Assembly: GCF_014697375.1 (NCBI RefSeq)
Contig: NZ_JACJRS010000013.1
Span: 1-64,000, forward strand
Direction: 5' to 3'
From: Phormidium sp. FACHB-1136
GTDB lineage: Bacteria > Cyanobacteriota > Cyanobacteriia > Phormidesmidales > Phormidesmidaceae
DNA: 64,000 nucleotides
The notes under the pieces were generated by a model, which worked only from the letters and a program-made list of their open reading frames with translations, was not told where the DNA came from and did no database searches. Positions within the stretch are counted from its first letter, which is position 1. Each line of letters begins with the position of its first letter. Both the position numbers and the translations under genes were made by a program. Shown here in pieces: positions 1 to 64,000 of this stretch.

Positions 1-24
1 GAAAGGCTTTACATCAGCCAGTTT

Positions 25-3357: not shown

Positions 3358-4277
3358 GACTGTCCTCCATTTGTTTTACTGCCAAGCCATGTGATATGAG
3401 AAATATCTGGATCTCCAAAGCCATCGGTTAATAGCAATATTGCTGCATCTGCAAGGTTTTCTAGCCTAATGCTTCCTTCATCTTCTAAACGACGTAAAGC
3501 AATTGACGTGACAGTCGAAAGATGATCTGGCTCTCTTAATTCGATCTGCTGTTCAATTTCATCACGGAACTTACCTGTCTCAAATATGGGACAATATTTT
3601 CCCAGTCGATTAATGAATTCTGCTAAAGGAAGTTGCTGGCCAACTTGGTTTTCAAATAGTCGTTTCAAATTATGCCTTAGATAAACTGTAGGGTCTGGAA
3701 CCAAGACTGCTTTCTTGGATAAGGAATTTCGCCAACAAAACCCTAAATAACAACTCCAATCCTCAAATTGTCCATAACGAGTATCATTAAGTTCAAGTAA
3801 TCCATCACCTACTTGTTGACGTAATTGTGTCTCTGTCTCTTCCCAGCTCCCAGGTACATTATAAAAATCTTGAGCTAAATACCAAGCTATAACTCTGACA
3901 AGATCGTGATTTTCGGAATTGTCTTGTGACAGGAAAAGACTTCCAATAATAGATGGCAATGAATCTTTTTTGTTGACTTCTGGATTAAGCCTGATATTTG
4001 AGTTATCCTCAATCAGAAGTCCCATATTTATACACTGCCTGATAACAGTTTTAATCATTTTATAGGGATCTTTCTTAATTTCCTCGTCTGGTATGTCATT
4101 AGGATTACTAGATACATCTTGTTTCTTTTTCTTTGAGCTTGTCAAAAGACTTATAGGAGACAGAGCTTGATAAAGCTTATCTCGGTTCTCTTGATGATCT
4201 TTAGCCTTGATAAGATACTTGTAGACTCCAATTACACGACTGGGAACTGTGTAAACACCTTCTTTTAAAACACTCAT
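3354..4277 (-). CDS. dpdG: DpdG-type protein of the dpd restriction module
   Basis: A 307-residue, probably cytoplasmic protein with no signal peptide or membrane helix. A Lys/Asp-rich linker (KKKKQD, around residues 50-56) separates a short N-terminal domain from the main helical domain. No catalytic motif can be recognised. It overlaps dpdF upstream and dpdH downstream by 4 nt each, so the three are one translational unit. A ~300-residue protein of unknown fold between the RecQ-like helicase and the large ATPase is what is expected of DpdG. Local base composition is AT-rich compared with dpdE, which hints at patchwork origin. Confidence 0.65.
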   Translation of the reverse strand: MSVLKEGVYTVPSRVIGVYKYLIKAKDHQENRDKLYQALSPISLLTSSKKKKQDVSSNPNDIPDEEIKKDPYKMIKTVIRQCINMGLLIEDNSNIRLNPEVNKKDSLPSIIGSLFLSQDNSENHDLVRVIAWYLAQDFYNVPGSWEETETQLRQQVGDGLLELNDTRYGQFEDWSCYLGFCWRNSLSKKAVLVPDPTVYLRHNLKRLFENQVGQQLPLAEFINRLGKYCPIFETGKFRDEIEQQIELREPDHLSTVTSIALRRLEDEGSIRLENLADAAILLLTDGFGDPDISHITWLGSKTNGGQS

Positions 4278-6811
4278 AGTCCTAGTTCCCCGCGAAGAAA
4301 TTCAAAGTAGAAGTTGCGACCATTGAAAACATCCTTGAGCTGGCGATGATTAGTAGTTGGATCAGGCGTGTTTTCTGGTAGAAGGACGATGCGAGGAACT
4401 TTCATCTCCGGTGCTAAAAGATATCGAACTGGCAGGGGATTGCCCTCAGTGTGAAAGATTAATGTTGGAATTTTGAGCATTTGAAGGGGACGATATTCTT
4501 CAAATAGAAAAATGGGGTTCTTTCCCGATTGGTTAGCAAAGGCTTTATTTAGTGCTGTGGGTGTAACGATATTTTGAATGCCTTGATTAATTAACCACTT
4601 AAAAAGGCGATCGCGGTTACGTTCTGATCGTTTATCTTCAAATATTGAGTAAAATATAAGTAGCAGTGATTCTCCATCCAACAATTTTCGAAGCGGTTCA
4701 CCTAAGTAAAAGCTTGGCTTATCCCATACAGGTGCTGGTAGTGGGATGCCTCCAGCAAAAGGTTCTGTTTTTTGCTCTCTACAAACCGTGCAACCACCAC
4801 ATGACCGCTCCACATGAATTCGGTTGCGGTAAGGTGACTCACGGGCGGGGATACTGTAGGCTTCTGAGAAGATTTCAGAGATACATCGTTGAGGTCGCAA
4901 TGCCTCTTGCATGAGGTTTAGACTGCGTTTAGTCCAATATTGGCGTTGACTACGGGCAGGTTCGATCAACTGCTTCCATGTGTCGGGGGCTAAGTGAGCA
5001 TCATTTAGAATCTTGACCGTGCGCAGGTTCCGATGCTGCTCAAGAGCCTTTTTATAGGGTTCCTCTGAATTAAAGTTTGTTCGTTGAGGAGGCGGTTCTG
5101 CGTCAATTTCAAGCAAACCAGCACGGCTCATCAACGTTAGCGTCCTAACGTTCCAGTCCTGATTACCTGTGCTCAACGGATCAAGGTCGCGATCGTAAGA
5201 CGGCAGTACGTTGATAGGTACTTGGAATCGACCATCGGGCAACCGGTACTTGCGAGCAAACATTTCCTCCCATCGACTTCTACCTTTCTCAGATGAGATA
5301 TAAGTAATTTTATTCAGGTCAAAAGCTACGTCGTAGTCTGCTTGGGTATACAGCGTCAGAGATAGAGCTGCCTTCCCATCTCTGCCCCCTCGTCCAACTT
5401 CTTGGTAGAAGCGATCTATGGTTTCAGGAATACACACATGAATAACAGCGCGAACATCCAATAAATCTACCCCTAACCCAAACGCTGAAGTTGCTACAAC
5501 AAAATCAATTTGCCCATTTCTCCAAGCCTCTAGAAGTTTCCAACGGTCATGCTGTTTCGATCTGCCAGTCATCTTGGCAACGCGCTTGAAGCCTGCACGC
5601 TGAAGCTCACTGTACCAGCGCTCTACATCTGCTACTTTGCTGCCATAGATGATCAGGGGACGTGGAAGATTATGCAGTGCTTCAATTAAACGCTGTCGTC
5701 TTTCTTCCCAGTTAGAACACCAAGTAAACCAATAGGCAGGCTCTGGTCGCAATTGAACAGATGAAACAACCTGAAAAGATCCTGACCGCCCAAACAGTGT
5801 TTCTAACGTGTCTAAGCAGGATTCAGTAACCGTTGCAGTTAGTAGTAGTGTTGGAAATGATGTTAGGCGCAGTAAATCTCTGCGAAATCCGGCGAGTTCC
5901 TGAAATTCAGGGCGGAACTCGTCTCCCCATTGCTCAACGATGTGAGCCTCGTCAATAATGAAATATCTGAGAAAACCCTGCCGTGCTGCTTGATAAACAC
6001 TGTGCGACAGCGACTCAATCAAGCCCTCTGGAGAAGTGAAAACAATCGACTGGGTTCCCTGACGAATGCGATCGCGAATTTCATCACGGCGTTCCTGTCC
6101 ATCTACAGAACTATCGCTATAGTAAGCAGTGGAATAGCTGATTCCAGTCTTCTCCCGGAACGCTCGTTCCTGGTCAATTGCTAGTGCGACTGTTGGGACA
6201 ACTACAATTGTGACTCCCACTGGATTTGATTTCATCAGGGCTGGTAAGTGGGCACACAGGCTTTTTCCAGAACCAGTTGGTAAGTTGACAACCAGGGTAG
6301 CTCCTGGAGGAGATGTGAGAATTGCTCGAACGGCTTCGCGTTGTCCTACACTCTGATAGGTTTCATGTCCTAGCAGAGACAAAAAGGGATCACCGGTTAC
6401 TGGAGAATAATTTCGGCGTTTTGCCTTGCTTTCCGATAGAGGAGGCTCTGGGGAAGCAGTCTTTGAATCTGGTAGCCATCCAGGCTTCCAGGGTTCAGCA
6501 GAGATGACTAAAAAGTCGCTCTCTTCCCGCAGTATGGCCATGCTGCTACGTTCCCAAGCTTCCCGTGCGGTTGGGAACGGTTTTTGTCGGGGAATTCGGA
6601 TACTGGGTGAGCCCCCCTCCTGAACTTCCATTTCTCGACGTAGTACATGCCGGACAAGAGCCGCAACGTCCCCCGTCCCTAATGTTTCTGGCTTCTGAAA
6701 AGCCCTTATCAGACGCCGATGACAGGACTCCGAGAAGTCTTGCTCATTAAGAACCCCCTTCGCACCATTCCTGAGCCAATCTGCTATAGCTTGAAACCCT
6801 AGTTCCATCAA
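4274..6811 (-). CDS. dpdF: DpdF-type RecQ-like ATP-dependent helicase
   Basis: An 845-residue superfamily 2 helicase. After a ~150-residue N-terminal extension come Walker A (LPTGSGKSLC, ~180), the DEAH box (IIDEAHIVEQW, ~287) and a helicase C domain with the RecQ-type motif VI region (YQEVGRGGRDG, ~465). A compact Cys cluster near 670 (SCGGCTVC) recalls the RecQ zinc subdomain. It should unwind or translocate on DNA during restriction of unmodified DNA. The gene overlaps dpdE and dpdG by 4 nt on either side. Length, RecQ similarity and neighbours match DpdF; a generic RecQ-like defence helicase is the alternative. Confidence 0.75.
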   Translation of the reverse strand: MMELGFQAIADWLRNGAKGVLNEQDFSESCHRRLIRAFQKPETLGTGDVAALVRHVLRREMEVQEGGSPSIRIPRQKPFPTAREAWERSSMAILREESDFLVISAEPWKPGWLPDSKTASPEPPLSESKAKRRNYSPVTGDPFLSLLGHETYQSVGQREAVRAILTSPPGATLVVNLPTGSGKSLCAHLPALMKSNPVGVTIVVVPTVALAIDQERAFREKTGISYSTAYYSDSSVDGQERRDEIRDRIRQGTQSIVFTSPEGLIESLSHSVYQAARQGFLRYFIIDEAHIVEQWGDEFRPEFQELAGFRRDLLRLTSFPTLLLTATVTESCLDTLETLFGRSGSFQVVSSVQLRPEPAYWFTWCSNWEERRQRLIEALHNLPRPLIIYGSKVADVERWYSELQRAGFKRVAKMTGRSKQHDRWKLLEAWRNGQIDFVVATSAFGLGVDLLDVRAVIHVCIPETIDRFYQEVGRGGRDGKAALSLTLYTQADYDVAFDLNKITYISSEKGRSRWEEMFARKYRLPDGRFQVPINVLPSYDRDLDPLSTGNQDWNVRTLTLMSRAGLLEIDAEPPPQRTNFNSEEPYKKALEQHRNLRTVKILNDAHLAPDTWKQLIEPARSQRQYWTKRSLNLMQEALRPQRCISEIFSEAYSIPARESPYRNRIHVERSCGGCTVCREQKTEPFAGGIPLPAPVWDKPSFYLGEPLRKLLDGESLLLIFYSIFEDKRSERNRDRLFKWLINQGIQNIVTPTALNKAFANQSGKNPIFLFEEYRPLQMLKIPTLIFHTEGNPLPVRYLLAPEMKVPRIVLLPENTPDPTTNHRQLKDVFNGRNFYFEFLRGELGL

Positions 6812-9800
6812 TCGTCATCCTCCCCAATGTGAGGTGGACGACCCGCCACGATATAGAATCCAATTGAGTCTAGGGAGACACGGGGGTCTACAATGCCATT
6901 TAGAAGAGCATTCCGAAGTAGCTGCTCTACTTCCACCTCTCTCGCTAGTTCCCGATCGTGGCCAAGTTCGGTCTGCTTTTCGAGCCTTAGGGTTAGCTGC
7001 TCTAACCGCTCATCTAGCTTACGAGTAGCCTTTTCGGCATAGCGTTGGCAGTAGCCCTGGAACTCCTCGCTGCGCCTCAAGCTTTCTTCCGAATGGGTTC
7101 GAGCATCGCGGCAAAGAGATTCCCAATCGTCTCGGCTGATAAATTCGTCGATGACCTCTAGCCTACTTTTAGCCAGGTTGTAATCCTGACGTGGTTTTCC
7201 CTTTTGTGAATAGGAACGGTTCAGAATTTCTAGCAAAGTAGTATCTTTGACGACCTGCATCCGAGTATCTAAATAGACAGTTCTAAAAAAGGGTGGAAAT
7301 AGTGCATCGGCACGACGCTGCAGGGCACGGAGATTGGCGTTCTGCCATTGAGTTTCGTCAAGTAACTGTTTAACCGGGGATAAATCGGCTTCTATAACGT
7401 AATCAAATCGAAAGCCCAGCCACTCCATACCTTCATTAGCTGGCCAGGTATCGATGTGCCGCCATAGGGCAAAGGCCCTGCCCCGGTCATCCCACTGGAC
7501 GTAGTCAGCGAAGGCGTCAATAACCCCTGCCCCTACCCTAAACAGCGCTTTACCAGGTTCACAATTTGCATGGCGACGATTATAGTTCCCTGATCGTTGC
7601 AACTCTTGGGGAGAGAGGAATTCAAGGATCTCATTGACCGGAATCTGCGTTTGGGAAACTGGCTTGTACCAGAAGAACTTCTGGCTGGAGGGATCGGTGT
7701 ACCAACGCTTGAATTGTAAGACTCGACACAGCCAACCCTCGGTCGCTTGCTGAATTTCTTTATGTCGGCCATCGTACTCATCCAGGGCATTGAAATATTC
7801 AGCCGCTCGGTCATCTAGGGCATCAATCTCGTCTAGGGCATGTTGTTCGTCGATGCTGACTTTTTCGGAAGCTATCTCTTCCTGAAGGATGTCAACGAGA
7901 CGATTACATCCATACTCCCCTTCTTGAAAGAGAACGGTCTCTAGCTCTGGCAGTTTGCTGTCCACATAAAACTGAAGACTGGCGATGGATTCCTTGAACA
8001 GGTTTAACCCTGACCCAAGCAGTACGACCCAAGCAGCGTGGGGATCATCTGCGGCTTCTGAACCTGAGAAGACCAAATATTTCATGGAGTGCATCAGGCC
8101 AATTCGATTCATTCGCCCATGCCGTTGCTCTATTCGGTTAGGCGACCAGGGCAGGTCGAAGTGAACCATGTAGTCGGCAAACTGGAGATTATGGCCTTCT
8201 TCGCCAGAAGCATCGCAGGCCATCACAAAACAGCGGGAATTATGTTTGAAATGTTGCTCGTTTTCCTCAACCACTTCGGACGATTGACCTGTCTGTAACG
8301 TCGCGACGGCTTCGTTGCCCAGCTTGGCTCGGAGTCGCCGCACAATTTCCCGACAAACGGGCGTATAGCAGGTAAAGATGACGAGCTTAGGAATGCTGAA
8401 GCCTCCTCCATCCCTGAGGGTGCAGACTAGCGTTTGGAGTTGGTGGATGCGATCGCACTCCTCCGATACTTCCTGTGTCAGCTCCAGCATCTGTTCTAGC
8501 AAAGCCTCCTCCCCATCAAAATGAGGAGTCTCAGTCAATATGCTGAGCGCTTCCTGCCCGAGGGTTTGGTTGATCTCCGCCAGGTTTTTATTGGTTGATC
8601 GGGCAGAGACAGCCCATTCCAACACTCTATGCCAGGAACCGCTAGCCAAAAACAGAACCTTGTAGAGTTGGGAGAGCCGTCTCCACTCATCACTTTCAGG
8701 TTCGGCTGATGAAAGGGCTCTAATGCGCCATTCATCCAGATACTCATGAAGGCTCTGGGCCTGGTCATAGGCGTCAAACTCCATCTGGAAAGTGGCATCG
8801 CCCTGGTCAACTAAAACATCCCGCACCGAGTCTCGCCGGTTGCGAAGCATTCGCCGGTGTAGTCGGTAGGTGTCGCTAATATGAGTACGGATAGTGCGTA
8901 CCGTACCGTCTATCTCCTGGCCTTCGGCAGAACCCGCTTCCAGTTGGGTCTTGAGTTGGTCGAGCCAGTTCCTGAGCCGCTGATCTCCCTCAAATAGAGC
9001 CTTAAGCTTTCCGATGCTCATTTTCAGCACAAAGGGGGAAGCGGTTGCTTTGAAGGAAAGCAGCACTCTCCCAATATCCTGCCTTAGACGAATCCGCTCC
9101 TTAAAGCCTTGCAAGTCATCAAGGCTATAGGTTTGAGGATCTAGAAAATGGAGCATCGCTAAAAAGGCCTGCTCGTGGTTGAGAGCTGGCGTCGCCGATA
9201 GCAGCAGCAATCCCTGTGCTCCATGGGCCAGTCGCCGACACCGGGAAAAGTGGTCCTGCTGGGTTGCATCTTCGGAAGCTGCCATCGCCGCGATGTGGTG
9301 AGCTTCATCAATGATGAGAAAGTCGGGAGGGCTTAAGGTAACGCGACCTAAGTCTTCTGCAGCAACAAGCTGTATCTCCTCGCTCAGGTAGAATTTGTCG
9401 GCTAATTCTTTTCGCCACTGCTCCTGAAGAGAACGGGGGACAATGACCAATGCTTTGCCAGTGGGATTGTCGAGCAAGAACTGCCGGAGAATGGACCCCG
9501 CCTCGATGGTTTTGCCCAGGCCAACTTCATCGGCTAGTAGGTATCGCTGAATAGGGTCTTCCAACACTCGGCGCACCACCTCCACCTGATGCGGGTAGAG
9601 GGTGATGTTAGCAGAGAAAAGCCCTGGCATTCCGTGGCTGATGGCCCGCTGTTCGGTTAGGTTACGGACAAAAGCCGAACGATGGGTATGGAAGAACGGA
9701 GTTTCGTGGCCTTTGAAGATGAGAACACTGGTGGGATCTTCAATCGGCACATGGCAGCGAACGTAGAGGTCTTGCTCGGTCGCGTAGCAGTATTTTCTAT

Positions 9801-10104
9801 CAGGGAGAGCAATTTCGTATCGCTGTTGGTATGGATCCCAATCGTCAACTCTGCCAATCTGCCAACGATCCTCATCTTCGAGCCAGAGATAGCAGCGGGT
9901 ATGCCGCCGTAGCTGCACTCGCTGCAACGATTGCAGGCTCACTTGGTGTGAGAAGCGATCTTTGACTGAAGTAAAGTACTCAACCGTACCAATGTCCCCA
10001 GATACAGCCAGGAGCTTGCCAACTCCGAGGCTATTGGATTGGGTAGATACGAAACAGGCAATTGGCAGATGGGAAGGTCGGGCGACCTCCAGAGAAGTCA
10101 TCAT
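6808..10104 (-). CDS. dpdE: DpdE-type SNF2/RapA-like helicase
   Basis: A 1098-residue SNF2-family protein. An N-terminal ~120-residue beta-rich region resembles the Tudor-like domains that precede RapA-type ATPases. It is followed by Walker A (ADEVGLGKTIEAG, ~195), the DEAH box (LIIDEAHH, ~268) and motif VI (RHGRMNRIGL, ~663). The last ~350 residues are helical and coiled-coil-like. It is the first gene of the overlapping dpd operon, so its promoter should lie in the ~50 bp before 10104 or further upstream around the gene remnant at 10152-10364. In dpd clusters the SNF2 protein DpdE belongs to the restriction set. Related helicases also occur in DISARM and BREX islands, but the dpdF-dpdG-dpdH neighbours argue for dpd. 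Confidence 0.75.
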   Translation of the reverse strand: MMTSLEVARPSHLPIACFVSTQSNSLGVGKLLAVSGDIGTVEYFTSVKDRFSHQVSLQSLQRVQLRRHTRCYLWLEDEDRWQIGRVDDWDPYQQRYEIALPDRKYCYATEQDLYVRCHVPIEDPTSVLIFKGHETPFFHTHRSAFVRNLTEQRAISHGMPGLFSANITLYPHQVEVVRRVLEDPIQRYLLADEVGLGKTIEAGSILRQFLLDNPTGKALVIVPRSLQEQWRKELADKFYLSEEIQLVAAEDLGRVTLSPPDFLIIDEAHHIAAMAASEDATQQDHFSRCRRLAHGAQGLLLLSATPALNHEQAFLAMLHFLDPQTYSLDDLQGFKERIRLRQDIGRVLLSFKATASPFVLKMSIGKLKALFEGDQRLRNWLDQLKTQLEAGSAEGQEIDGTVRTIRTHISDTYRLHRRMLRNRRDSVRDVLVDQGDATFQMEFDAYDQAQSLHEYLDEWRIRALSSAEPESDEWRRLSQLYKVLFLASGSWHRVLEWAVSARSTNKNLAEINQTLGQEALSILTETPHFDGEEALLEQMLELTQEVSEECDRIHQLQTLVCTLRDGGGFSIPKLVIFTCYTPVCREIVRRLRAKLGNEAVATLQTGQSSEVVEENEQHFKHNSRCFVMACDASGEEGHNLQFADYMVHFDLPWSPNRIEQRHGRMNRIGLMHSMKYLVFSGSEAADDPHAAWVVLLGSGLNLFKESIASLQFYVDSKLPELETVLFQEGEYGCNRLVDILQEEIASEKVSIDEQHALDEIDALDDRAAEYFNALDEYDGRHKEIQQATEGWLCRVLQFKRWYTDPSSQKFFWYKPVSQTQIPVNEILEFLSPQELQRSGNYNRRHANCEPGKALFRVGAGVIDAFADYVQWDDRGRAFALWRHIDTWPANEGMEWLGFRFDYVIEADLSPVKQLLDETQWQNANLRALQRRADALFPPFFRTVYLDTRMQVVKDTTLLEILNRSYSQKGKPRQDYNLAKSRLEVIDEFISRDDWESLCRDARTHSEESLRRSEEFQGYCQRYAEKATRKLDERLEQLTLRLEKQTELGHDRELAREVEVEQLLRNALLNGIVDPRVSLDSIGFYIVAGRPPHIGEDDD

Positions 10105-12498: not shown

Positions 12499-15090
12499 TC
12501 ATACTTGAATTTGCTGTTGTATTTGTAATGAGGCTTGAGCTTGGACAAAGGAACTGTAAATAGCAATTTCCGAATTGATAATTTCAAAGCTAACAGCTAG
12601 AGCATAAGGCACTTGAGCTGTTAAATCATTATTCCAGCCTTTATGGGCTACAACTGCTATACAGAAAGTATCTCGTAAGTCGAAAGATTTGACTACCGCC
12701 CAATCTTTCTGAATTGTCCCAGCTCCTCTAGAAGTATCTTTTACCCGTCGACTATGGTTTTTCTGCTGTCCAAGTGTCCAGTCGAATAATCCAGAGCCGT
12801 CTTCCTGATCCTCAGAGGCTTCATATTTTTCAAGAACCCTAGCTAAAAATCTATCTGGTGATTCTTCTTTTTGACTACATTCCCAATGTAACCAAGTAGA
12901 TAAATACTTACGTTTATTACGTCGTGTTCGACGTGGTTCAGCTTTATAAGAAAGTGTAATCTCAATAAGAATATCAAAAGCTTCTGCTGGAGATTTCAGT
13001 TCTTCTGGAATGATCACTTGATAAATATGTGCTTGTCGCGCTTGAATTAGACTGTCCCCATTAGTAATCAATGTCACACGATTAGGTGCATTACCAAGCG
13101 CACGCTCAAGATTCGGCAAACCGTATCCCATCATACGAATAGCTGAGGAAAGATCGGGTTCATCATTAGTCCATGCAGGTAATCTTGCTGATTGCACAAT
13201 CAAAGCTTTATAGAGCAAGCAACTTTCCTGTGGGAAATTAGATGCCAAGGCTGCTGCAATATGAGTCACTTTAGGTGCTGCAAAGGAAGTGCCAATATTA
13301 TCCGCTGCAACTGCTGGCGCTCCCCCAATCGTCGTCCTTACTAACTCGGGGCAAACATCCGCAGGTGTAGAAAAGCTAGGCGGATTCCCCTCATCCTTGA
13401 CTAGATCTCCGCCATACTCAACGACTTCAGGCTTTATCGAATCCCAAATACCATAGCCTGTGCAGGAAAATGCTGAAGGATAGTCTTGTAATGCCACAGA
13501 AGTAGTTGGTGGACGATTATAGGTACAATGAGCGATTGATCCTACAGTTAAAGCTTGAAAGCTTTGGGCAGGATTAGCGATCCGAGACGAATCCTTTAGT
13601 AAAAAATCTGGATATGCATAACCTTCCTCAAAATACTCTGTGAGAGCCTTGCGAGTAATACTTAGTCCTGGAAGTCGAACAGTAGGTAGGTTTCCTGCTG
13701 AGACAATAAAAAGAATGTCCTTTTGCCAAGCAAGGTAATCTATTTCAGCAGCCCAAGCACTCATGTAAGTTCTTCGACAAGGTGCTGAACTATTAATTGA
13801 GTGATTAAATATGCGAGTACCTGTTTGAGAATGATAGAAATCTACAATGTCATTTAAGACTTCTGGTATATATAATTTGGCTGGAAATTTGCAATCTTTT
13901 TCTAAAACTCTAGCGTTTTGAAGCCAACCGATTGCTGTTTGCCGACCAGTACGTGGAACTCCTTGAGGATATAAAACTGCTCCAGCGACTCGTGTGCCAT
14001 GCCCACCACCTGATACACGATCTACTTTTTGATCAGTCTCATTAGGAACCCATGATCGTGAGTTATTGTTATCTACAGCAACACGTAAGAAACGATGGCT
14101 TTCTTGGATACCACTGTCAATGATACAGACCTTTGGAGCTAATGGTGGTGGCGGATCAAGTGTAAAGGACGATTGATCACTTGTTGCTATAGTACGATCC
14201 GTTAATGGTTCAGCTATTTGATCTGGTTCGCTAACCTCAAAAACGTAGGGATAATTGGCAACTAAATCTTTCAAGCCCTTACCAGAAATCTCAATGCGAC
14301 TAGAAAAACTATCGGGCAAAAGTGCAAGATGCGAGCGATCATCATGATCACCAAGCAGAATCAATGTTCCATCAAGCTTTCTTACAAAGTCTTCAAAATC
14401 ATTTTCTCTATCAAGTTGTAGCCTTTCCCATTCCTGCAAAGTTTGGTCACGCCTATCAGTCCATCTAGCAATCTTACGAGCGTATCTCTCAGGGGTTTCA
14501 TTCTCTTGTTGGCGTGGATAGTCTGAAAATTTAGAATTTAGACCTACACAGGCAATGCTGATGTCAACTATGTAAATGTGGTCATCTAGAATCTGATCCC
14601 ATCGGGCAAGCAAATCCGGTGAAAGAATGTATTCCAGACGCTCGAACTTACCTTCTAGAATTTCCCAGATCTCAGCGACCTTCCCTCCACCATGTTCTTC
14701 AGAAATAAACTTCTCGATCTTTTCCTGGAGTTTAGTCAACTCAGCATCAACCGAAGCCCCAAGGATGTAACCATTTTCAAGTTCAAGAATAACTTCAATC
14801 CCAAAGCCCTTGAGGGCATCTGCATCAAAGGATTTTGGATCTACTTGAAGTAAGAATGAAGGAACATTTGGAATATCTGGCATTCCTTCTTGCTGACGTT
14901 TTTCAAGGGTATTTTTCCAATCAGAAATAACGGAGGATACAGAAGATTTGAGCCTTCCGCCATGACCACCTGCATTTTCTCGATTAGCATGAGAGCGCTC
15001 AGATCGTCGGGGAGGTCTTCCAGGGCGGGCGAAATCTGTTTTTGTCAGTCTCAAGGGAATATGCTTGAATTGTTCAGGTCGCTCAGACAT
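12499..15090 (-). CDS. ietS: Subtilisin-like (S8) protease, IetS-type defence effector
   Basis: An 863-residue S8 peptidase with an intact triad: Asp in VCIIDSGIQ (~321), His in GGGHGTRVAG (~363) and Ser in GTSFAAPKV (~600). A ~300-residue N-terminal extension and ~200-residue C-terminal extension flank the protease domain. There is no signal peptide, so it acts in the cytoplasm. The start overlaps the end of the AAA ATPase gene by 8 nt. A cytoplasmic subtilase coupled to an AAA ATPase is the architecture of IetAS, described first as a plasmid-stability/toxin-antitoxin pair and later as an anti-phage system. The ATPase would restrain or activate the protease. AT-rich composition separates it from the plasmid backbone. 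Confidence 0.75.
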   Translation of the reverse strand: MSERPEQFKHIPLRLTKTDFARPGRPPRRSERSHANRENAGGHGGRLKSSVSSVISDWKNTLEKRQQEGMPDIPNVPSFLLQVDPKSFDADALKGFGIEVILELENGYILGASVDAELTKLQEKIEKFISEEHGGGKVAEIWEILEGKFERLEYILSPDLLARWDQILDDHIYIVDISIACVGLNSKFSDYPRQQENETPERYARKIARWTDRRDQTLQEWERLQLDRENDFEDFVRKLDGTLILLGDHDDRSHLALLPDSFSSRIEISGKGLKDLVANYPYVFEVSEPDQIAEPLTDRTIATSDQSSFTLDPPPPLAPKVCIIDSGIQESHRFLRVAVDNNNSRSWVPNETDQKVDRVSGGGHGTRVAGAVLYPQGVPRTGRQTAIGWLQNARVLEKDCKFPAKLYIPEVLNDIVDFYHSQTGTRIFNHSINSSAPCRRTYMSAWAAEIDYLAWQKDILFIVSAGNLPTVRLPGLSITRKALTEYFEEGYAYPDFLLKDSSRIANPAQSFQALTVGSIAHCTYNRPPTTSVALQDYPSAFSCTGYGIWDSIKPEVVEYGGDLVKDEGNPPSFSTPADVCPELVRTTIGGAPAVAADNIGTSFAAPKVTHIAAALASNFPQESCLLYKALIVQSARLPAWTNDEPDLSSAIRMMGYGLPNLERALGNAPNRVTLITNGDSLIQARQAHIYQVIIPEELKSPAEAFDILIEITLSYKAEPRRTRRNKRKYLSTWLHWECSQKEESPDRFLARVLEKYEASEDQEDGSGLFDWTLGQQKNHSRRVKDTSRGAGTIQKDWAVVKSFDLRDTFCIAVVAHKGWNNDLTAQVPYALAVSFEIINSEIAIYSSFVQAQASLQIQQQIQV

Positions 15091-16129
15091 GAGAAGCTAA
15101 AACGTCTTGAATTGATTCTTCTAAATGTTCTTGAATAACTAACTCTTCTCGATCTAGAATGGCACGCTTTGCTGCATCCTGAGCAACCCTGACCACCTGT
15201 GCAGCCGAGAAATTGAGCATCTTTTGTATAATCGAATTCCAATCAATTGACCCAACCTCAACTGAAGAGAGTGTCTGTTTTAAGATAACCTCGATTTCTC
15301 TCTTTGTCGGCTTTGGTACTTCAATAGCATCATCAAATCTTCGCCATACAGCTTCATCTAGAAATTTAGTTAAATTAGTTGCAGCAACAATCAACCCATC
15401 TGAGACCTCATACTCGTCAAGTAGCTGAAGGAATGTATTAACCACACGTTTAATTTCGCCAACTTCCTGGCTATCTTCGCGGGATTTTGCTAATGCATCA
15501 CATTCATCAATGAAAAGTAAACACGGAAATGCAGAGGCATTCTCAAATACTTCACGCAGGTTAGTCGCAGTTTCTCCTAAATAGGAAGATACCATTGCAT
15601 CGAAGCGAACTTTGACCAAGGTTAAACCTGTATTCCAAGCAATACGCTCGGCTCCCATTGTTTTGCCGCACCCTGGAGAACCGTAAAGCAAGATCTTTTG
15701 GCGATAGCGCAACCCATGATGGGCGAGTCGATCACGAGCAGCATACTCCCGTTCAATACGTCGAAACCGTGTTTCGACAGCATCAGCAAGAATCATATGA
15801 TACCGTAAATTATCACGGGGAATTGTAACAATAAACGGATGGTTGAACCTATGTTGACTCGATAAGAGGGTGAGAGAGCGTGTATCGGATGTTTTAGATG
15901 CGGCTCTTTCTAAAGACGTTGAAGGGCTTTCTCGTACAGAATCTGATGATGAATTTTCAGATTTGGCAAGATAGATGCTTTTCCGCAGAATGCTTTCGAG
16001 TTGATTAGCAAGATTGGTATGTCCTAGCTTGCGTTCTTCCTCTACTACAATGGACAACATGCTTTGTATTGCCTGTGAGTCATCACTGGCAACAGCACGG
16101 AATAAACGCTTTAGCACCTCTCCCTTCAT
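15083..16129 (-). CDS. ietA: AAA ATPase, IetA-type partner of the subtilase
   Basis: A 348-residue AAA ATPase. A ~100-residue helical N-terminal domain and a Ser-rich linker precede Walker A (GSPGCGKTMGAE, ~150) and Walker B (LLFIDECDAL, ~208). These are followed by a sensor/arginine-finger region around VAATNLTKFLDEAVWRRFD. The domain is closest in style to the FtsH/spastin-like clade of AAA proteins. It is the upstream gene of the pair and overlaps the protease gene by 8 nt, so stoichiometric co-translation is likely. In IetAS, IetA is the ATPase needed together with IetS. The promoter should lie within the AT-rich stretch just upstream of 16129. Confidence 0.75.
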   Translation of the reverse strand: MKGEVLKRLFRAVASDDSQAIQSMLSIVVEEERKLGHTNLANQLESILRKSIYLAKSENSSSDSVRESPSTSLERAASKTSDTRSLTLLSSQHRFNHPFIVTIPRDNLRYHMILADAVETRFRRIEREYAARDRLAHHGLRYRQKILLYGSPGCGKTMGAERIAWNTGLTLVKVRFDAMVSSYLGETATNLREVFENASAFPCLLFIDECDALAKSREDSQEVGEIKRVVNTFLQLLDEYEVSDGLIVAATNLTKFLDEAVWRRFDDAIEVPKPTKREIEVILKQTLSSVEVGSIDWNSIIQKMLNFSAAQVVRVAQDAAKRAILDREELVIQEHLEESIQDVLASHV

Positions 16130-47956: not shown

Positions 47957-48303
47957 ACGACTTAATCACGACTGAATTGTTATCTTCAGCAAAATTCATC
48001 ATGATCTTGATGTCCGGTAATGTCGATTCACGACTGGATAACGACTGGATAACAACTCCCCTATAGTGAACCTAGGGAAAATCTGAATTCAGCCCATCAT
48101 TCACGATTGGATAACGACTTATTGACGACTTCATCACGACTCAATCACGGCTGGACTGGCCTGAACCAGGGTATAGCCTGAGATTTATCCATCATTCACG
48201 ACTTGATAACGACTTGATAACGGCTGGAAGGTATTGAGTCTGAAGAGCACTTGAGATTTATCCATCATTCACGACTTGATAACGACTTCATCACGACTTG
48301 GCA
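47957..48303. repeat. parC-like centromere: clustered 11-bp direct repeats
   Basis: About 16 copies of an 11-bp unit (ACGACTTGATA and variants such as ACGACTTCATC, ACGACTGGATA) lie head to tail in five clusters that start at 47957, 48030, 48103, 48198 and 48271. Clusters hold three units (the third holds five), separated by ~40-bp spacers. Several spacers end in ATCCATCATTC or similar. Start-to-start distances are 73, 73, 95 and 73 bp; the odd one equals 73 plus two units. The array lies just upstream of parM and must also contain its promoter. Eleven-bp direct repeats upstream of parM are the hallmark of R1-type parC. A replication-iteron role is less likely, since the rep gene is 5 kb away. 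Confidence 0.75.
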
Positions 48304-55221: not shown

Positions 55222-55767
55222 ATGGCAACCACGCTACAGCAGTTGGCCCAATTTCTAGATCATCGCCAATGGCGCTACCGAGTGGATCCTGCTGAATCCC
55301 GCATTTTGACCGGGGTGAAGGCGGAGTATGTGGATCCCTTTGTGATTGTGCTGCGGCTGTCGGAGCAGGGCGAGTTTTTGCAGTTCCAGGCTCCCCAGAT
55401 TTTGATGGTGCCGGATTCGGTTTATAAGGGGCCACTGCTGCAAACCATGGCCCACATCCAGTACCAAGTGAAGATGCTGCGGCTGGAGTATGACCCCACC
55501 GATGGCGAAATTCGGGCCTCGATTGAGCTGCCCTTGGAGGACGCCCCCCTAACAGAACGGCAGTTTAACCGTTGTTTGGAGGGGTTGGTTCACCTGGTAG
55601 ACCAGGAGGCGATGCCCCGGCTGAAGGCGGTGCTGGCCACGGGGGAAGACCCTGGCCGTAAGGCGTTGGCCCAGCGGTTGATGGCGGATATGCCCACTGA
55701 GTTGATGGGCCTGCTGGAGGAAATGGTGGATCTCCACCAACGACAACGCTTGGCCGATGAACGGTAG
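55222..55767 (+). CDS. YbjN-like hypothetical protein
   Basis: A 181-residue soluble protein with the fold pattern of YbjN/type III secretion chaperone-like domains common in cyanobacteria: N-terminal LQQLAQFLDHRQWRYRVD, beta strands (AEYVDPFVIVLRLSEQG; FLQFQAPQIL), then MLRLEYDPTDGEIRASIELP. The C-terminal tail is helical. The opening (short helix, then a basic-acidic strand with evaluation-type sheet) is characteristic. Molecular role unknown. A good start with GAGGAGCCACC precedes the ATG. Confidence 0.65.
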   Translation: MATTLQQLAQFLDHRQWRYRVDPAESRILTGVKAEYVDPFVIVLRLSEQGEFLQFQAPQILMVPDSVYKGPLLQTMAHIQYQVKMLRLEYDPTDGEIRASIELPLEDAPLTERQFNRCLEGLVHLVDQEAMPRLKAVLATGEDPGRKALAQRLMADMPTELMGLLEEMVDLHQRQRLADER

Positions 55768-57776: not shown

Positions 57777-60700
57777 ATGGATGAGGCGAGAGAGCAGCAA
57801 TATGTGACGCTGGCTCAAAAGCTCCTGGGGCGCTTCTGGGGGAAGAAGCGAGCCCAAACCCTGATGGAACAAGCTTATGAGTGGCTAACCCAAGCTCAGT
57901 TAGGGATCGACCCGGCGGCAAATTTGGAGCGGGCGATCACGGCCTACGGGAAATCGGCGGAGATTATGCGACGGTTGGGACTGAATTCTGATCTCTCCTT
58001 GATCCTAAATAACCAGGGCACTACAAGGCTAACCCAAGCCGAGTTGGGGATTGAGCCGATGCAAAACTTGGAGTGGGCAATCGCCTCCTATAGGGAATCA
58101 GCGGAAATCAGGAAGCGGTTGGGCTTAGAGCTTTCACTCTCCCACACCTTGAATAATCAGGGTAATGCAAGGCTTGCCCAAGCTCAGTTAGGTATCGACC
58201 CGGTGGCGAATTTGGAGCGGGCGATCACGGCCCACGGGAAAGCAGCGGAAATCAGGAAACGGTTAGGGGCAGAGCGTGACCTCTCCGATACTTTGAATAA
58301 CCAGGGCACTGCAAGACTGACCCAAGCTCAGTTAGGCATCAACCCAATAGAGAATCTAGAGTGGGCAATCGCTGCTTACAGAGAATCAGCAGAGATTAGG
58401 CGATGGTTGAGATTAGAGCGTGACTTATCTCAGACTTTGAATAACCAGGGCACTGCAAGACTGACCCAAGCTCAGTTAGGCATCAACCCAATAGAGAATG
58501 TAGAGTGGGCAATCGTGCTCTATTCAGAATCGAGCCAGATTATGCGACGCTTAGGCTTAGAGCACGACCTTTCCAAATCATTGAATAATCAAGGCAAGGC
58601 GTGGCAGACCCAAGCCGAGTTAGGAGTTGAGCCAGCCCAAAATCTGGAGCGGGCGATTTTGGCCCACAACGAATCGGTGGAAATTACGGAGCGGTTAGGA
58701 CTATATCTAATCCTCAGCGATACCTTAAATAACAAGGCCAATGCCCATTGCACCCAAGCCGAGTTAGGGATCGAGCCAGCCCAGAATTTAGAGCGGGCAA
58801 TCTTGGCGTACGGGGAATCGGTGGAGATTATGCGACGGTTGGGGTTAGAGCGCATCCTCTCCGCCACCTTGGCGAACCAGGCCACTGCGCGGTGGAACCA
58901 AGCTCAGCTAGGGATTGATCCAGCGTTGAATTTGGAGCGGGCGATCTTGGCCTACGAGGAATCGGCGGAGGTTATGCAACGGTTGGGGTTAGAGAGCGAC
59001 CTCTCTAGTATCTTGATGAACCAGGCTAATGCGCGGCAGACCCAAGCGGAGTTAGGGATCGACCCGGCGCTGAATTTGGAGCTGGCGATCACCGTCTACG
59101 GGGAATCGGCGGAGATTAGCCGACGGTTGGGGTTAGAGCGCACCCTCTCCCGTACCTTGATGAACCAAGCCATTGCATGGAAGACCCAAGCAGAGTTAGG
59201 GATCGACCCGGCGCTGAATTTGGAGCGGGCGATCACCGTCTACGAGGAATCGGCGGAGGTTATGCAACGGTTGGGGTTAGAGAGCGACCTCTCTAGTATC
59301 TTGATGAACCAGGCTAATGCGCGGCAGACCCAAGCGGAGTTAGGGATCGACCCGGCGCTGAATTTGGAGCTGGCGATCACCGTCTACGGGGAATCGGCGG
59401 AGATTAGCCGACGGTTGGGGTTAGAGCGCATCCTGGCGGGGACGCTGCATAACCTGGGTAATACTTACAAAACCCAGGCGAATCAAGCTGATGTCGATGA
59501 AATCACCCGTGAGCAAGCCTTACCCAACGCTCTGCAATGCTACCGCGAAGCGCTCACCTACTTCGACCCAGTGGTGCTGCCCGTAGACACCCTTAGATCG
59601 GCTCGTGCCCTCGGCGATCTGCACTTTAGCCAAGGTCACTGGCACGCCGCCCTAGCCGAAGGCTACCAAGTGGCCATCGCCGCTGTAGAACAAACCCGCA
59701 CCTGGGCCACCGACGATAAGCGCCGCCAAGAACTGATGGAAAACGCCATTGGGGTTTATGCCAACGCCCTGCAATGCCACATCAACCTTGGCCAATTCGA
59801 CCAAGCCATCCTGCTCACCGAACGCGCCCGTTCCCGCCATCTGGTAGAACTGATGGCCAGCAACGATGCCTACAAGAGCGGCAACATTGCCCCCGAAGTC
59901 TTGAACTATCTAGAACAATACGAAGCCCTGCAACAGCGCATCAACGCCGAACGCCAGCGCCAGCAACAGGGCGACACCAAAGCCCTCAGCACCAGCACCG
60001 AACGCGCCGCATCCCTCGATAGCCTAAAAATGACCCGCGCCGAAATTGACCACCTCGATGCCGAAAAAGACCGCATTTGGAAGCACCTACGCCAACTCGA
60101 CCCCGTCCTAGCCGGACAGCTCGAAGTGCGCCCCCCCGACTTTGACACCCTGCGGCAACTCATCGACCGCCCCACCACCGCCCTGCTCAGCTTCTACTCC
60201 ACCAACGACCACACCTACATCTTTGTGCTGCGGCAAGACCGCATCGACCTCCACACCTGCACCGATCAGGGCTATCGCCAACTGCAAACCTGGATTCTGC
60301 AAAACTGGCTAACCCCCTACCAGCAAAACTTCTCCACCTGGAGAGAAGCCATGCCCCAGCAGTTGACCGAACTCTCCCAGCGCCTCCAACTCGATACCCT
60401 GATCCAAACCCACCTGCAAGGCATTGATGAACTCATCCTCATCCCCCACATCGCCCTGCATTTAATTCCCTTTGCGGCTCTGCCCGTGGAAGAGGGGGCG
60501 AGGGTTCTGGGCGACGCCTTTAAACTGCGCCTCGTCCCCAGTGCTCAGGTTTTGAACTATTGCCAACAGCGCCCCACCCCCACCCAGCTCGACTCCATCG
60601 CCCTGGTCGAAGATGCCACCGATGACCTCATCTGCACCCGCTACGAATGCGACGCGATTGATCAACTCCAGCCCGCCCCCACGCGCCACCGCCTGCGGGG

Positions 60701-61439
60701 TTCCGCCGAAGCCACCATCGCCGCCTATCGCCACCTGCTCCAAGACCAGGGCGTTCAGGCGCTCCATTCCAGCCACCACGCCAGCTCTGTCTTGGGCACA
60801 CCCCTAGACTCGGCCCTGCTTTTGGGGGATGGCCTGATCACCCTGGGCCAGTTGATGAGCCCTGGCTGGCGGATGCCCGACCTGGTGGAGGTGTTTCTCT
60901 CCTGTTGCGAAACCGCCCTAGGCAAGCCCAACCTCACCGACGATATCCTCACCCTCAGCGCCGGATTTCTCAGCGCCGGGGCGCGTAGCGTCATCAGCAC
61001 CCTCTGGTCGGTGGATGAATTGGCCACCACGATTTTCTGCATCCGCTACTACCACCACCGCCATCCCGACGCAGACACCTGGAACGACCGCCCCACCGCC
61101 CTGTACCTGGCCCAGCAAGACCTCCGCACCCTCCCCGGCAGCGCCCTGGCGGATCCTACCCAGTTCAAACCCCTCATGGATTTTTACCAGCAGCACCTCG
61201 CCGACGAATATCCCCGTCTGCTAGAACAAGCTGCCAACCTGAAAAGCCAAGAAAAAGCTGCCAAACAGGCTGGGGATCGGGCCAAGGCCAAAGACCTGAA
61301 AGAAAAACGGGAGGCTCTGGACTTGAAAGTGCAGCAAAATAAACGCCTCCGCGAAGGCTTGCCCACCCTTTGCCAAACGCCCACCCCCTTTGCCTCCCCC
61401 TTCTATTGGGCTGCCTTTACCTGCCAAGGTCTGCGCTAG
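57777..61439 (+). CDS. TPR-CHAT cysteine protease
   Basis: A 1220-residue protein starting at ATG 57777 (MDEAREQQYVTLAQ) with a GAGGTGGGA ribosome site. Residues ~38-565 are eleven 48-residue TPR-like repeats (consensus QAxLGIDPxxNLExAI and SAEIxRRLGL), then a conventional TPR/helical region (FDQAILLTERARSRHLVELM) and a C-terminal CHAT domain (~790-1220). The CHAT catalytic His is in ALHSSHHASSVLG and the Cys in VFLSCCETALG, ending in PFYWAAFTCQG. A charged coiled coil is inserted near the end (AKAKDLKEKREALD). CHAT proteases are caspase-like and are often switched on by a sensor arm. The next two genes encode a possible sigma-like and a DUF1822 protein, suggesting a signalling cassette. Confidence 0.88.
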   Translation: MDEAREQQYVTLAQKLLGRFWGKKRAQTLMEQAYEWLTQAQLGIDPAANLERAITAYGKSAEIMRRLGLNSDLSLILNNQGTTRLTQAELGIEPMQNLEWAIASYRESAEIRKRLGLELSLSHTLNNQGNARLAQAQLGIDPVANLERAITAHGKAAEIRKRLGAERDLSDTLNNQGTARLTQAQLGINPIENLEWAIAAYRESAEIRRWLRLERDLSQTLNNQGTARLTQAQLGINPIENVEWAIVLYSESSQIMRRLGLEHDLSKSLNNQGKAWQTQAELGVEPAQNLERAILAHNESVEITERLGLYLILSDTLNNKANAHCTQAELGIEPAQNLERAILAYGESVEIMRRLGLERILSATLANQATARWNQAQLGIDPALNLERAILAYEESAEVMQRLGLESDLSSILMNQANARQTQAELGIDPALNLELAITVYGESAEISRRLGLERTLSRTLMNQAIAWKTQAELGIDPALNLERAITVYEESAEVMQRLGLESDLSSILMNQANARQTQAELGIDPALNLELAITVYGESAEISRRLGLERILAGTLHNLGNTYKTQANQADVDEITREQALPNALQCYREALTYFDPVVLPVDTLRSARALGDLHFSQGHWHAALAEGYQVAIAAVEQTRTWATDDKRRQELMENAIGVYANALQCHINLGQFDQAILLTERARSRHLVELMASNDAYKSGNIAPEVLNYLEQYEALQQRINAERQRQQQGDTKALSTSTERAASLDSLKMTRAEIDHLDAEKDRIWKHLRQLDPVLAGQLEVRPPDFDTLRQLIDRPTTALLSFYSTNDHTYIFVLRQDRIDLHTCTDQGYRQLQTWILQNWLTPYQQNFSTWREAMPQQLTELSQRLQLDTLIQTHLQGIDELILIPHIALHLIPFAALPVEEGARVLGDAFKLRLVPSAQVLNYCQQRPTPTQLDSIALVEDATDDLICTRYECDAIDQLQPAPTRHRLRGSAEATIAAYRHLLQDQGVQALHSSHHASSVLGTPLDSALLLGDGLITLGQLMSPGWRMPDLVEVFLSCCETALGKPNLTDDILTLSAGFLSAGARSVISTLWSVDELATTIFCIRYYHHRHPDADTWNDRPTALYLAQQDLRTLPGSALADPTQFKPLMDFYQQHLADEYPRLLEQAANLKSQEKAAKQAGDRAKAKDLKEKREALDLKVQQNKRLREGLPTLCQTPTPFASPFYWAAFTCQGLR
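57888..59471 (+). repeat. Eleven 144-bp tandem repeats encoding TPR-like units
   Basis: Eleven in-frame 144-bp units begin near 57888. Units near the 3' end are the most alike: 58952-59142 and 59240-59430 are identical over 191 bp, two units apart. This shows recent two-unit duplication and implies that repeat number varies between strains. Confidence 0.8.
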
Positions 61440-61558
61440 CCGTAGGGCACCCGCCCACCTACCCAAATTTGCAAAACCCCCCTGATAGATCGGTGGGTGC
61501 AGCAAACCCCGATAGTTCCCTGAGTTCTATGTTCCTGTCCCAAAGCTTGGAGTGATCC

Positions 61559-62758
61559 ATGCCCATCACCATCCAAAACCCCGCCCAACCCGACGGCATC
61601 GACCTGTGGGCTAACGTCCTCAACCGCATGATGCCCTACAAACACAACGACCAAGACCTCGATCAGCGGCTCATTGCCCTGGTGGAGGCCATTGTCCAGA
61701 TTCCGCCCGATGAGGTGGAACAGCGAGAAGCGGCCATTGATCGCTTCCTGGGGATGATCTACTGTCTACCGAATCTCTATTTTCCAGGCAAGAAGGAGAC
61801 TCCAAGGGAGCAGTTTTTGCGACGACAGTTTCCTGAATGGGATCGCGAGGCTGTGCGGGATCGCATCCTTACCGAGGTGGTCATCCCCAAGGCAAAAGCC
61901 AAGATCCACGAGTTTTACCCCACGGGCAAATATCTAGCGCCCACCCTAGGCAACTGGGTCAACCGCAAGTTGCGGCTTTACTATAAGTGCCTCGATGCCT
62001 ACCAAAACCGCCGACCCGATGCCGCTCTAGATAACGACCAAGACGGAGCCAACGAACGTCTGGAGTGGGAGATCTTTGCCGCCAACCCCACCCTCAGCGA
62101 CTTAGAGGACATCATTGCCCAAGATCAAGCCAAACAGCGTCCTGAGGGCATGTCTGCCCCCCTGTTTGCCGAGGTGGCCCAAGGAATCGCCAACGTGCTG
62201 GGGCAAACCCCCACCCAGCGGTTTATCACCTATGTTAAGGACGATCCCCAGGGGGTGCTGCGGGCCAAGTCGCCGCCCAACTATCCTGCCTGCACCTACC
62301 AGGTGTTGATCCAGCGAATTTTCCTGAACCAGGACGACAAAACCGCCGTTGCCAAGGAGTTCAGCATTCCCTACCAGAATCTCAATCCCCACTACAACCG
62401 CCATGTCTGCCCCGCCTTTATCCAGCGGCTGATTCTGGAAGAGGGCTTTTTTGACCCCCAAGACTATGACAAACTGCGGCACTATATTGACCAAGATCCC
62501 TTGGGTTTGCTGCAAAATTGCTACAAGCCCCAAATGCCCAAGGTCAATGCCCAATTCCTCGCCCAGCAACGGCTACGGATTTATCGAGAGGCTGATCCTG
62601 TTCCCTTTGAGGACATCTGGAACAGTCTGATTCAACAACAGGCGATGGCCCCCTCTCGCCTAGATTGTGACCAACTAGAGAAGTTTTGGGTAAAAACGGC
62701 CTTTCCTCTGGTGGCTCAGGAGGCACTGCGTGTACTGGCTTACGACCTGGAGGTTTAA
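61559..62758 (+). CDS. Hypothetical protein, possible sigma-region-2-like segment
   Basis: A 399-residue all-helical, soluble protein. The segment FYPTGKYLAPTLGNWVNRKL plus RLYYKCLDAYQ (~120-150) resembles the sigma-70 region-2 pattern (glycine-led helix, then WVN-R-L) seen in cyanobacterial sigma-like proteins of DUF1822/CHAT clusters. The C-terminal part repeats SIPYQNLNPHYNRHVCPAF-like helices but no clear sigma-4 HTH is visible. It lies 119 bp after the CHAT gene and 5 bp before the DUF1822 gene, so all three are probably coexpressed. The sigma resemblance is an inference by eye and could be wrong; a non-DNA-binding adaptor is possible. Confidence 0.5.
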   Translation: MPITIQNPAQPDGIDLWANVLNRMMPYKHNDQDLDQRLIALVEAIVQIPPDEVEQREAAIDRFLGMIYCLPNLYFPGKKETPREQFLRRQFPEWDREAVRDRILTEVVIPKAKAKIHEFYPTGKYLAPTLGNWVNRKLRLYYKCLDAYQNRRPDAALDNDQDGANERLEWEIFAANPTLSDLEDIIAQDQAKQRPEGMSAPLFAEVAQGIANVLGQTPTQRFITYVKDDPQGVLRAKSPPNYPACTYQVLIQRIFLNQDDKTAVAKEFSIPYQNLNPHYNRHVCPAFIQRLILEEGFFDPQDYDKLRHYIDQDPLGLLQNCYKPQMPKVNAQFLAQQRLRIYREADPVPFEDIWNSLIQQQAMAPSRLDCDQLEKFWVKTAFPLVAQEALRVLAYDLEV

Positions 62759-62763
62759 TCACC

Positions 62764-63603
62764 ATGACAATTACCGTGGAACAATTTGACAACGCAATTT
62801 CCCTTGAGCTGCCCCAGGATGCCCAGGAATGGGCGCGGTTATTTGCCGCCAAGCAAGGCGATGTAGCCACTGGGAAACAGGTCTACCTCAATACCCTGGC
62901 CGTCTATGCCCTGCACCACTACCTAGCCCAGCAAAGCATTGAGTCTGACCTAGAGCAAAGCCAGAGCTGGTATCCCCATGCCCTCTCGGCTCCCAATGCC
63001 GCCGATTTGCTCGTACCTGGGGTAGGACGGGTGGAATGTCGTCCGGTGTTGCTGCAAGCGGCCACCGCCTTTGAAATCCCAGATACCGCCTGGGATGATC
63101 GGGTGGCCTATGTGGCGATTGGCATTGAAGAGCGGTTGGATCGGGTTTATTTATTGGGCTATTTGCCCGTGCGCTCTCCCGACAACCTGATGCAGTCCAT
63201 CCCGTTTACCCAACTGTTGCCCATGGCCGACTTGCCCGACCATCTCCACTTTTTGCAAGAGGGACTAACCTGGCTAGAAAGTGATGACGAGGTTGCCGTC
63301 CAGGTGCGGGAACTGCAAGAAGTCTATTCCCTGACCCATTTTGTGGCCCAGTTAGAAACGGCCTACAACGAAACGGAAGACGTTTTTCAGGATTCACGCA
63401 TTGCCGATTGTCTATCGGGTGCGGCCAGCGAAATGGGATTGACGGCCAGAGAAGCGGTGCTAAAAAGCCCAGCTACCTTTGGGCTCAAAGCGGAAGACGA
63501 CCTCTCCGAGGAAGACATGGAGGATATGGTGGGGATCCTGGCCGAAGATGTCTTGGATAAATTGAGGCAAATCTGGGGTAATCGTCGCCGTCGAGTTACT
63601 TGA
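62764..63603 (+). CDS. DUF1822 family protein
   Basis: A 279-residue protein from the ATG at 62764. DUF1822 hallmarks are present: QVYLNTLAVYALHHYLAQQ, then SQSWYPHALSAPNAADLLVP and GVGRVECRPVL, and a second domain (VAYVAIGIEERLDRVYLLGYL). The C-terminal ~70 residues are acidic and helical. DUF1822 is almost confined to cyanobacteria and repeatedly neighbours CHAT and sigma-like genes. Its function is unknown. A start 78 nt upstream overlaps the previous gene and is disfavoured. Confidence 0.85.
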   Translation: MTITVEQFDNAISLELPQDAQEWARLFAAKQGDVATGKQVYLNTLAVYALHHYLAQQSIESDLEQSQSWYPHALSAPNAADLLVPGVGRVECRPVLLQAATAFEIPDTAWDDRVAYVAIGIEERLDRVYLLGYLPVRSPDNLMQSIPFTQLLPMADLPDHLHFLQEGLTWLESDDEVAVQVRELQEVYSLTHFVAQLETAYNETEDVFQDSRIADCLSGAASEMGLTAREAVLKSPATFGLKAEDDLSEEDMEDMVGILAEDVLDKLRQIWGNRRRRVT

Positions 63604-63694: not shown

Positions 63695-64000
63695 TTACGG
63701 CTCTGGCAAGTCTTGCAGCGGTGGATGCCAACCGCCCTGGATCCAGTAGGTTCTGGCATGGAGGATGGCTCCGTCATCATGGCGGTCATCATTCATATCC
63801 AAGCAGTGGCAGGTTGCTCGTCCCTTGGGGGTAGTGCCCTCGATGCGTAGCCCTGCCTTTGCCCAGCGAAAATGCTCTGTCCAGGTATCCAGTCGAGGGT
63901 TGAAGAGCCTCTCGCTGGACTGTGTGAGGGGATCGATCCATTGGGTGAAGTTATATCGGCGAAGATTGCAGCGCCGACAGGCCAAGGCCAGATTATCGAG
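63695..64000 (-). CDS. HNH endonuclease, 5' end beyond the window
   Basis: The C-terminal ~100 residues of a cyanobacterial HNH family: LDNLALACRRCNLRR (zinc Cys pair and Asn), DPLTQSSERLFNPRLDTW, TEHFRWAKAGLRIEGTTPKG and RATCHCLDMN. The N-terminal half with the first Cys pair and catalytic His lies beyond 64000. The family is frequent in cyanobacterial genomes and is either a restriction-like nuclease or a domesticated homing enzyme. It is convergent with the DUF1822 gene. Confidence 0.8.
   Translation of the reverse strand, partial: LDNLALACRRCNLRRYNFTQWIDPLTQSSERLFNPRLDTWTEHFRWAKAGLRIEGTTPKGRATCHCLDMNDDRHDDGAILHARTYWIQGGWHPPLQDLPEP

Follow-up and report, generated by a model that had tools for sequence, protein, structure and literature searches.

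The window, a 64,000-nucleotide stretch covering positions 1–64,000 on the forward strand of contig NZ_JACJRS010000013.1 (C35) of Phormidium sp. FACHB-1136, contains a cassette of three genes in the same orientation (57777–63603, +) encoding a TPR-CHAT protease, a sigma-like protein and a DUF1822 protein. The cassette is best read as a probable transcription switch set off by the protease, similar in its working to Craspase but without CRISPR. The three families are linked far above chance, and the set is kept together in many cyanobacteria. It is very probable that the genes of the cassette act as one unit. Features of the cassette and of the adjoining HNH gene are listed in Table 1.

TABLE 1. 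Predicted features of the cassette and of the adjoining HNH gene (positions in the window).
Feature	Position	Strand	Basis and remarks
TPR-CHAT protease gene, 1220 aa	57777..61439	+	ATG 57777, stop 61439; Pfam CHAT E 6e-33
Repeat arm, putative sensor	57891..59474	+	11 in-register 48-aa repeats, aa 39-566
CHAT (caspase-like) domain	60393..61430	+	aa 873-1218, Pfam CHAT
Predicted catalytic His1001	60777..60779	+	Motif HSSHH, invariant in clade, aligned to Csx29 histidine; numbered from ATG at 57777
Predicted catalytic Cys1044	60906..60908	+	Motif LSCCET, invariant in clade, aligned to Csx29 cysteine; numbered from ATG at 57777
Divergent sigma-70/ECF-like protein, 399 aa	61559..62758	+	Family profile against host sigma factors; DUF1822 adjacency
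Sigma region-2-like helices, aa 96-150	61844..62008	+	Model helices, conserved columns, profile match; W133 near-invariant
Sigma region-4-like HTH, aa 219-296	62213..62446	+	Best-modelled part, pLDDT 93-97; Pfam matches of relatives
DUF1822 protein, short form, 279 aa	62764..63603	+	PF08852 E 3e-33, profile positions 1-156 of 370 only
DUF1822 N-terminal alpha/beta domain	62803..63234	+	Common to both subtypes; restriction-endonuclease-like in model
DUF1822 helical C-terminal tail	63235..63573	+	Alignment and subtype table; only in TPR-CHAT cassettes, replaces beta domain of EACC2 subtype
HNH endonuclease gene, possible fourth component	63695..64000 (to 64141 on C35)	-	Pfam HNH E 7e-16; converges on DUF1822

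Genomic Setting

The window encodes TrbI, the coupling protein TrwB and the relaxase TrwC, with genes of a type IV secretion system (T4SS); judging from its predicted genes, it is a conjugative element loaded with defence genes. DpdH, DpdG, DpdF, and DpdE are encoded at 235–10104 (-), and DpdA farther along the same contig (C35 73702–75828, -), where the next open reading frames appear QueC- and QueD-like by eye. These genes are assigned to a 7-deazapurine DNA modification system riding the conjugative element. The IetAS defence pair, comprising the subtilase IetS and the ATPase IetA, is located at 12499–16129 (-). At the closest related cassette (L017), DISARM genes for DrmA and DrmB occupy positions 2–4469 of that locus, about 4.5 kb upstream of the cassette. 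A similar small gene, recognized by eye, lies near the cassette both in the window (55222–55767) and in L017 (15771–16058). A short array of divergent 47-nt repeats, with spacing mostly 73, is located before the relaxase gene (48011–48298) and is classed as iteron-like, not CRISPR; no CRISPR-like array was found among the direct repeats of the 64-kb window.

The Dpd, IetAS, and T4SS genes of the window, together with the DISARM genes beside L017, support a role of the cassette in defence, short of proof, and we regard this role as likely. Control of a housekeeping, developmental or envelope response is an alternative of low probability. Its precedent is the CHAT protein HetF of Anabaena, which has an N-terminal CHAT domain, a transmembrane segment and divisome localization, with HetZ and PatU3 as partners (PMC8406250, PMC12288457), and which is thought to limit PatU3, the inhibitor of the regulator HetZ, in heterocyst development (PMC12288457). 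The EACC2-type cassettes described below, which have CHASE2 or periplasmic-binding sensors and one of which adjoins S-layer and secretion genes, are also consistent with such a function. However, TPR-CHAT cassettes are patchily distributed and several relatives are plasmid-borne, with full gene sets on plasmids of Nostoc species; moreover, defence genes surround the cassette in the window and its closest relative, and an HNH nuclease is linked to it.

TPR-CHAT Protease

A reading made from the sequence only had proposed a CHAT protease with an 11-repeat arm. Both parts were recovered: the arm consists of exactly 11 repeats, each 48 aa apart, and TRF returned the corresponding 144-bp period. 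The DNA identity of repeats 8 and 10 (92%) and of repeats 9 and 11 (85%) indicates recent expansion of the arm. NCBIfam matches of the arm to aminoglycoside acetyltransferase were rejected as compositional, covering tiny stretches with scores far under the cut-off.

Among solved structures, the CHAT profile significantly matches only Csx29/TPR-CHAT of type III-E CRISPR (E 1e-7). With the curated Csx29 model the window CHAT scores 55 bits against a cut-off of 300 bits, and only two CHAT proteins of this genome match that model, both encoded on this contig and both far under the cut-off. The window CHAT domain is nearer to Csx29 than are two other TPR-CHAT proteins tested from the same genome. 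It is matched by the TPR-CHAT profile and not by the EACC2-CHAT profile, and CHAT proteins of the same clade are present in other TPR-CHAT cassettes. A second TPR-CHAT protein of this clade, 56% identical in the CHAT domain, is encoded at C35 67009–70989 (L013:11010–14990); it has no sigma-like or DUF1822 neighbours, and a HEPN gene lies downstream.

Sigma-Like Protein

The sequence-only reading had also regarded the middle protein as possibly sigma-like. For the family this view is upheld, while the window protein alone gave no Pfam or NCBIfam match, sigma families included. The family profile matches the small sigma factors (ECF/SigF) of the same genome at 93.3%, collinear over 185 columns comprising sigma2, linker and sigma4; in controls, no shuffled or reversed template exceeded 1.7%, and none of 22 unrelated real families exceeded 9%. 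Pfam Sigma70_r4_2 or HTH matches were obtained for some relatives, with region-4 matches in 2 of 34. The linker motif SLDAPI, kept in short relatives, resembles one in a host sigma factor. Other DUF1822 loci carry a second upstream family, which matches at 72% in the profile–profile comparison, has a best SigF/FliA hit of E 4e-12 and contains Sigma70_r4 in 21 of 30 members; by these matches it clearly belongs to sigma-70.

An unrelated fold of the middle protein had been named as evidence that would count against its sigma character. A fold search with a weak model (pTM 0.34) returned three ECF sigma factors as the best PDB matches, none of them significant (best E 0.15), and a PDB search with profile A6 found no sigma chain. 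The profile match with its controls, the SLDAPI motif, the second sigma-70 family and the nonsignificant fold matches together led us to call the protein sigma-like, which is highly likely; the missing sigma-family match of the window protein, its poor model and the A6 result speak against this. Most relatives are short, at about 231 aa, and have no counterpart of the extra C-terminal region that the model shows after the HTH of the window protein. An internal HTH duplication in the window protein, suspected by eye, was dropped as BLAST gave nothing.

DUF1822 Protein

As the earlier reading had stated, the DUF1822 gene follows the sigma-like gene, with 5 bp between the stop codon of the latter and the ATG of the former, and its assignment to PF08852 is confirmed. 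The structure model of the protein (pLDDT 84) matches phage proteins in BFVD, one of which carries a restriction-endonuclease annotation, with E values of 2.6e-5 to 1.6e-4 and prob 1.0; in the PDB, weak matches to DpnI, PvuII, NhoI, and HincII were found (E 0.07 or worse). Residues D81, E91, and C92 show little or no variation among the aligned proteins, resembling a D-X9-E-x pattern. The catalytic D...(D/E)xK signature of PD-(D/E)XK enzymes is, however, absent, with R, S or C at the lysine position among DUF1822 members. Since the lysine is not kept, the modelled N-terminal domain is probably an inactive fold serving as a binding module, or an altered nuclease. A PHROGs search with the protein returned nothing. 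By sequence it has no detectable similarity to solved chains, and thus none to Csx30 or to an anti-sigma factor.

These findings bear on the possibility that DUF1822 is itself the effector, with a nuclease-like or DNA-binding N-terminal domain that stays silent until CHAT cuts the tail, the sigma-like protein controlling only expression. The BFVD and PDB matches and the conserved D81, E91, and C92 favour such an effector, but the residues at the lysine position make activity doubtful. Furthermore, a sigma-like gene nearly always adjoins DUF1822, and the C-terminal domain swaps with the protease, as expected for an adaptor. We consider the effector role unlikely.

Conserved Linkage and Two Subtypes

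Conserved linkage of the three families, for which a survey of cyanobacterial genomes had been suggested, was found. In the first survey DUF1822 directly follows the relative of the middle protein in all seven cases (7/7), and in a scan that yielded 57 named loci it is the next gene in 55 of the 56 with a middle gene called. In about 60 further cyanobacterial stretches, selected mainly by their DUF1822 genes, a sigma-like open reading frame is located upstream of nearly every DUF1822 gene and a CHAT protease lies beside many. In most loci the CHAT protease comes next after the pair. Near-identical loci of closely related strains inflate these counts; removal of identical rows left 82 pairs over all loci.

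Two subtypes are distinguished by the protease. Full-length DUF1822 with a C-terminal beta domain pairs with EACC2-CHAT (60 loci), and the short helix-tailed form pairs with TPR-CHAT of the same clade as in the window (24 loci with the protease downstream, plus the window with the protease upstream); among these loci no mixed combination of DUF1822 tail and protease occurs. The sigma-like family, unlike the DUF1822 tail, is the same across both subtypes. Trees built for the two partners of the protease, the sigma-like protein and DUF1822, require three changes of protease type, although a single origin is also compatible. Two more DUF1822 loci of this genome (L014 and L015, on contigs C27 and C231 of G000) encode a different protein of 454–463 aa upstream of DUF1822, and other CHAT genes adjoin them.

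The sigma-like protein could instead be the substrate of the protease, with DUF1822 as a scaffold or co-sensor. The three-gene linkage fits this arrangement equally well, and the extra region after the HTH of the window protein could be the removable part; yet the short relatives lack that region, and it is the DUF1822 tail, not the sigma-like family, that changes between protease subtypes. This makes the arrangement distinctly improbable.

In the window the CHAT gene is located upstream of the sigma-like gene with a 119-bp gap, in contrast to its downstream position in most relatives, and the second CHAT protein of the contig lacks such a pair. Both observations could mean that the CHAT gene is a chance neighbour of the pair. 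This is very improbable, given that the nearest of the full-length relatives, L017, shares this gene order and that the window DUF1822 is the short form specific to TPR-CHAT cassettes. The window and L017 are sisters in the trees, and in L017 two small genes, XisH- and XisI-like by eye, lie between CHAT and the pair.

HNH Gene and Candidate Promoter

Most of the TPR-CHAT relatives surveyed, about 25 loci with duplicates counted, carry an HNH gene a short distance ahead of the sigma-like gene; this upstream gene was absent from every EACC2 locus scanned. The window HNH gene differs from it in both clade and orientation. In L127–L148 the conserved HNH gene is accompanied by a two-block promoter and, among the loci listed, lies 34–126 bp upstream of the sigma-like gene. 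The putative promoter, GCGTMAWTTTTT-N9-CTGWTA, is located upstream of the HNH–sigma–DUF–CHAT operon and is kept between Nostoc and Microcoleus relatives. Of the 12 other genomes or records searched, 11 have a single exact copy of it; the one without is G433, whose Cylindrospermum locus (L129) lacks the HNH gene. The motif was not found in the window cassette. With two mismatches the counts were near those of the reversed-pattern control, and we propose no wider regulon. In the EACC2-type loci L160, L165, L171, and L173 a similar block, TCATAATTTT...CTGATA, with about the same spacing is located upstream of the sigma-like gene, which suggests self-regulation there too. The HNH nuclease, the conserved promoter, the truncation of DUF1822 and the defence-element context were not part of the sequence-only reading.

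Comparison With Known Systems

Neighbourhoods of a caspase (EACC2), an ECF sigma factor and DUF1822 have been reported, and protease-to-transcription signalling was proposed for them (Kaur, Iyer, Burroughs, Aravind 2021; PMC8195603). Like those systems, the window pairs sigma-like and DUF1822 genes beside a caspase-fold protease. Unlike them, the protease is a TPR-CHAT protein with the CHAT domain at its C terminus and no N-terminal EACC2 domain, DUF1822 lacks the C-terminal beta domain, and most TPR-CHAT relatives add an HNH nuclease. DUF1822 was described in that study as a TPR protein, whereas the model obtained here consists of an alpha/beta domain and a helical tail. No description of the TPR-CHAT subtype was found in the openly accessible papers searched. 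By predicted domain content, the cassette stands near the EACC2-caspase/ECF/DUF1822 systems.

In Craspase, the N-terminal domain of Csx30 binds CASP-sigma and its C-terminal domain is recognized and cut (Strecker 2022, PMC10028731). The cassette resembles this type III-E system (Csx29, Csx30, CASP-sigma) in the neighbours of its TPR-CHAT protease, an ECF-like sigma and one further protein, in the similarity of the CHAT domain to Csx29 with an aligned His/Cys pair, and perhaps in a self-regulated promoter in relatives. It differs in having DUF1822 in place of Csx30; no similarity to Csx30 or Csx31 was detected. Since the Csx29 score is under the cut-off, the window contains no array and no Csx30 was detected, the cassette may work like Craspase without being a member of it. 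The proposal of Craspase logic without CRISPR is partly supported, by the conserved linkage, the sigma-like family and the nearness of CHAT to Csx29. The idea was partly preceded by PMC8195603.

The HetF–PatU3–HetZ system shares with the cassette a cyanobacterial CHAT protein, thought in that case to limit the inhibitor of a transcription regulator; the partners in the window are instead a sigma-like/DUF1822 pair. The proposed logic, with a sigma factor set free by cleavage of its inhibitor, also recalls RseA/RpoE and RsiW/SigW. There the sigma factor is released from a membrane anti-sigma by regulated intramembrane proteolysis with no CHAT protease, in contrast to the CHAT protease of the cassette.

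Proposed Mechanism

The half of DUF1822 that is common to the subtypes should bind the sigma-like protein, and the half that varies with the protease should be read by the protease; together with the precedent of Csx30, this leads to the following model, whose steps beyond gene anatomy we infer. The repeat arm would sense a cue, probably an invader product, and activate the CHAT His/Cys site. DUF1822 would act as an adaptor or anti-sigma, its constant N-terminal domain holding the sigma-like protein and its variable C-terminal tail being the part recognized and cut by CHAT. Cutting of the tail would free the sigma-like factor, which could then switch on the promoter of its own cassette; in most relatives the HNH nuclease would be turned on as well.

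The role of DUF1822 as the inhibitor cleaved by the protease is tentative, falling a little short of an even chance. The same holds for the model as a whole, a mobile-element, non-CRISPR sigma switch run by the CHAT protease with DUF1822 cleaved, which we consider slightly less probable than its negation. Against it stand the lack of sequence similarity of DUF1822 to Csx30 or an anti-sigma, its fold hinting at a nuclease-like domain, the missing promoter motif of relatives in the window cassette, and the upstream position of CHAT. It is doubtful that the cassette is related to Craspase, or a forerunner of it, as a CRISPR-free system in which the arm of a Csx29-like protease senses an invader directly, DUF1822 is cleaved, and release of a dedicated sigma leads to production of the HNH nuclease and the cassette. 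Such a system would amount to a widespread protease-to-transcription immune pathway of cyanobacteria, belonging to a pool from which type III-E CRISPR could have taken its protease/sigma module.

Implications

If the model is correct, the release of a sigma factor by proteolysis would be a general immune output that needs no CRISPR. DUF1822, a family without an assigned function, would become a testable substrate or anti-sigma, and the gene sets on Nostoc plasmids make such testing practical. These cassettes would also be a possible evolutionary source for Craspase.
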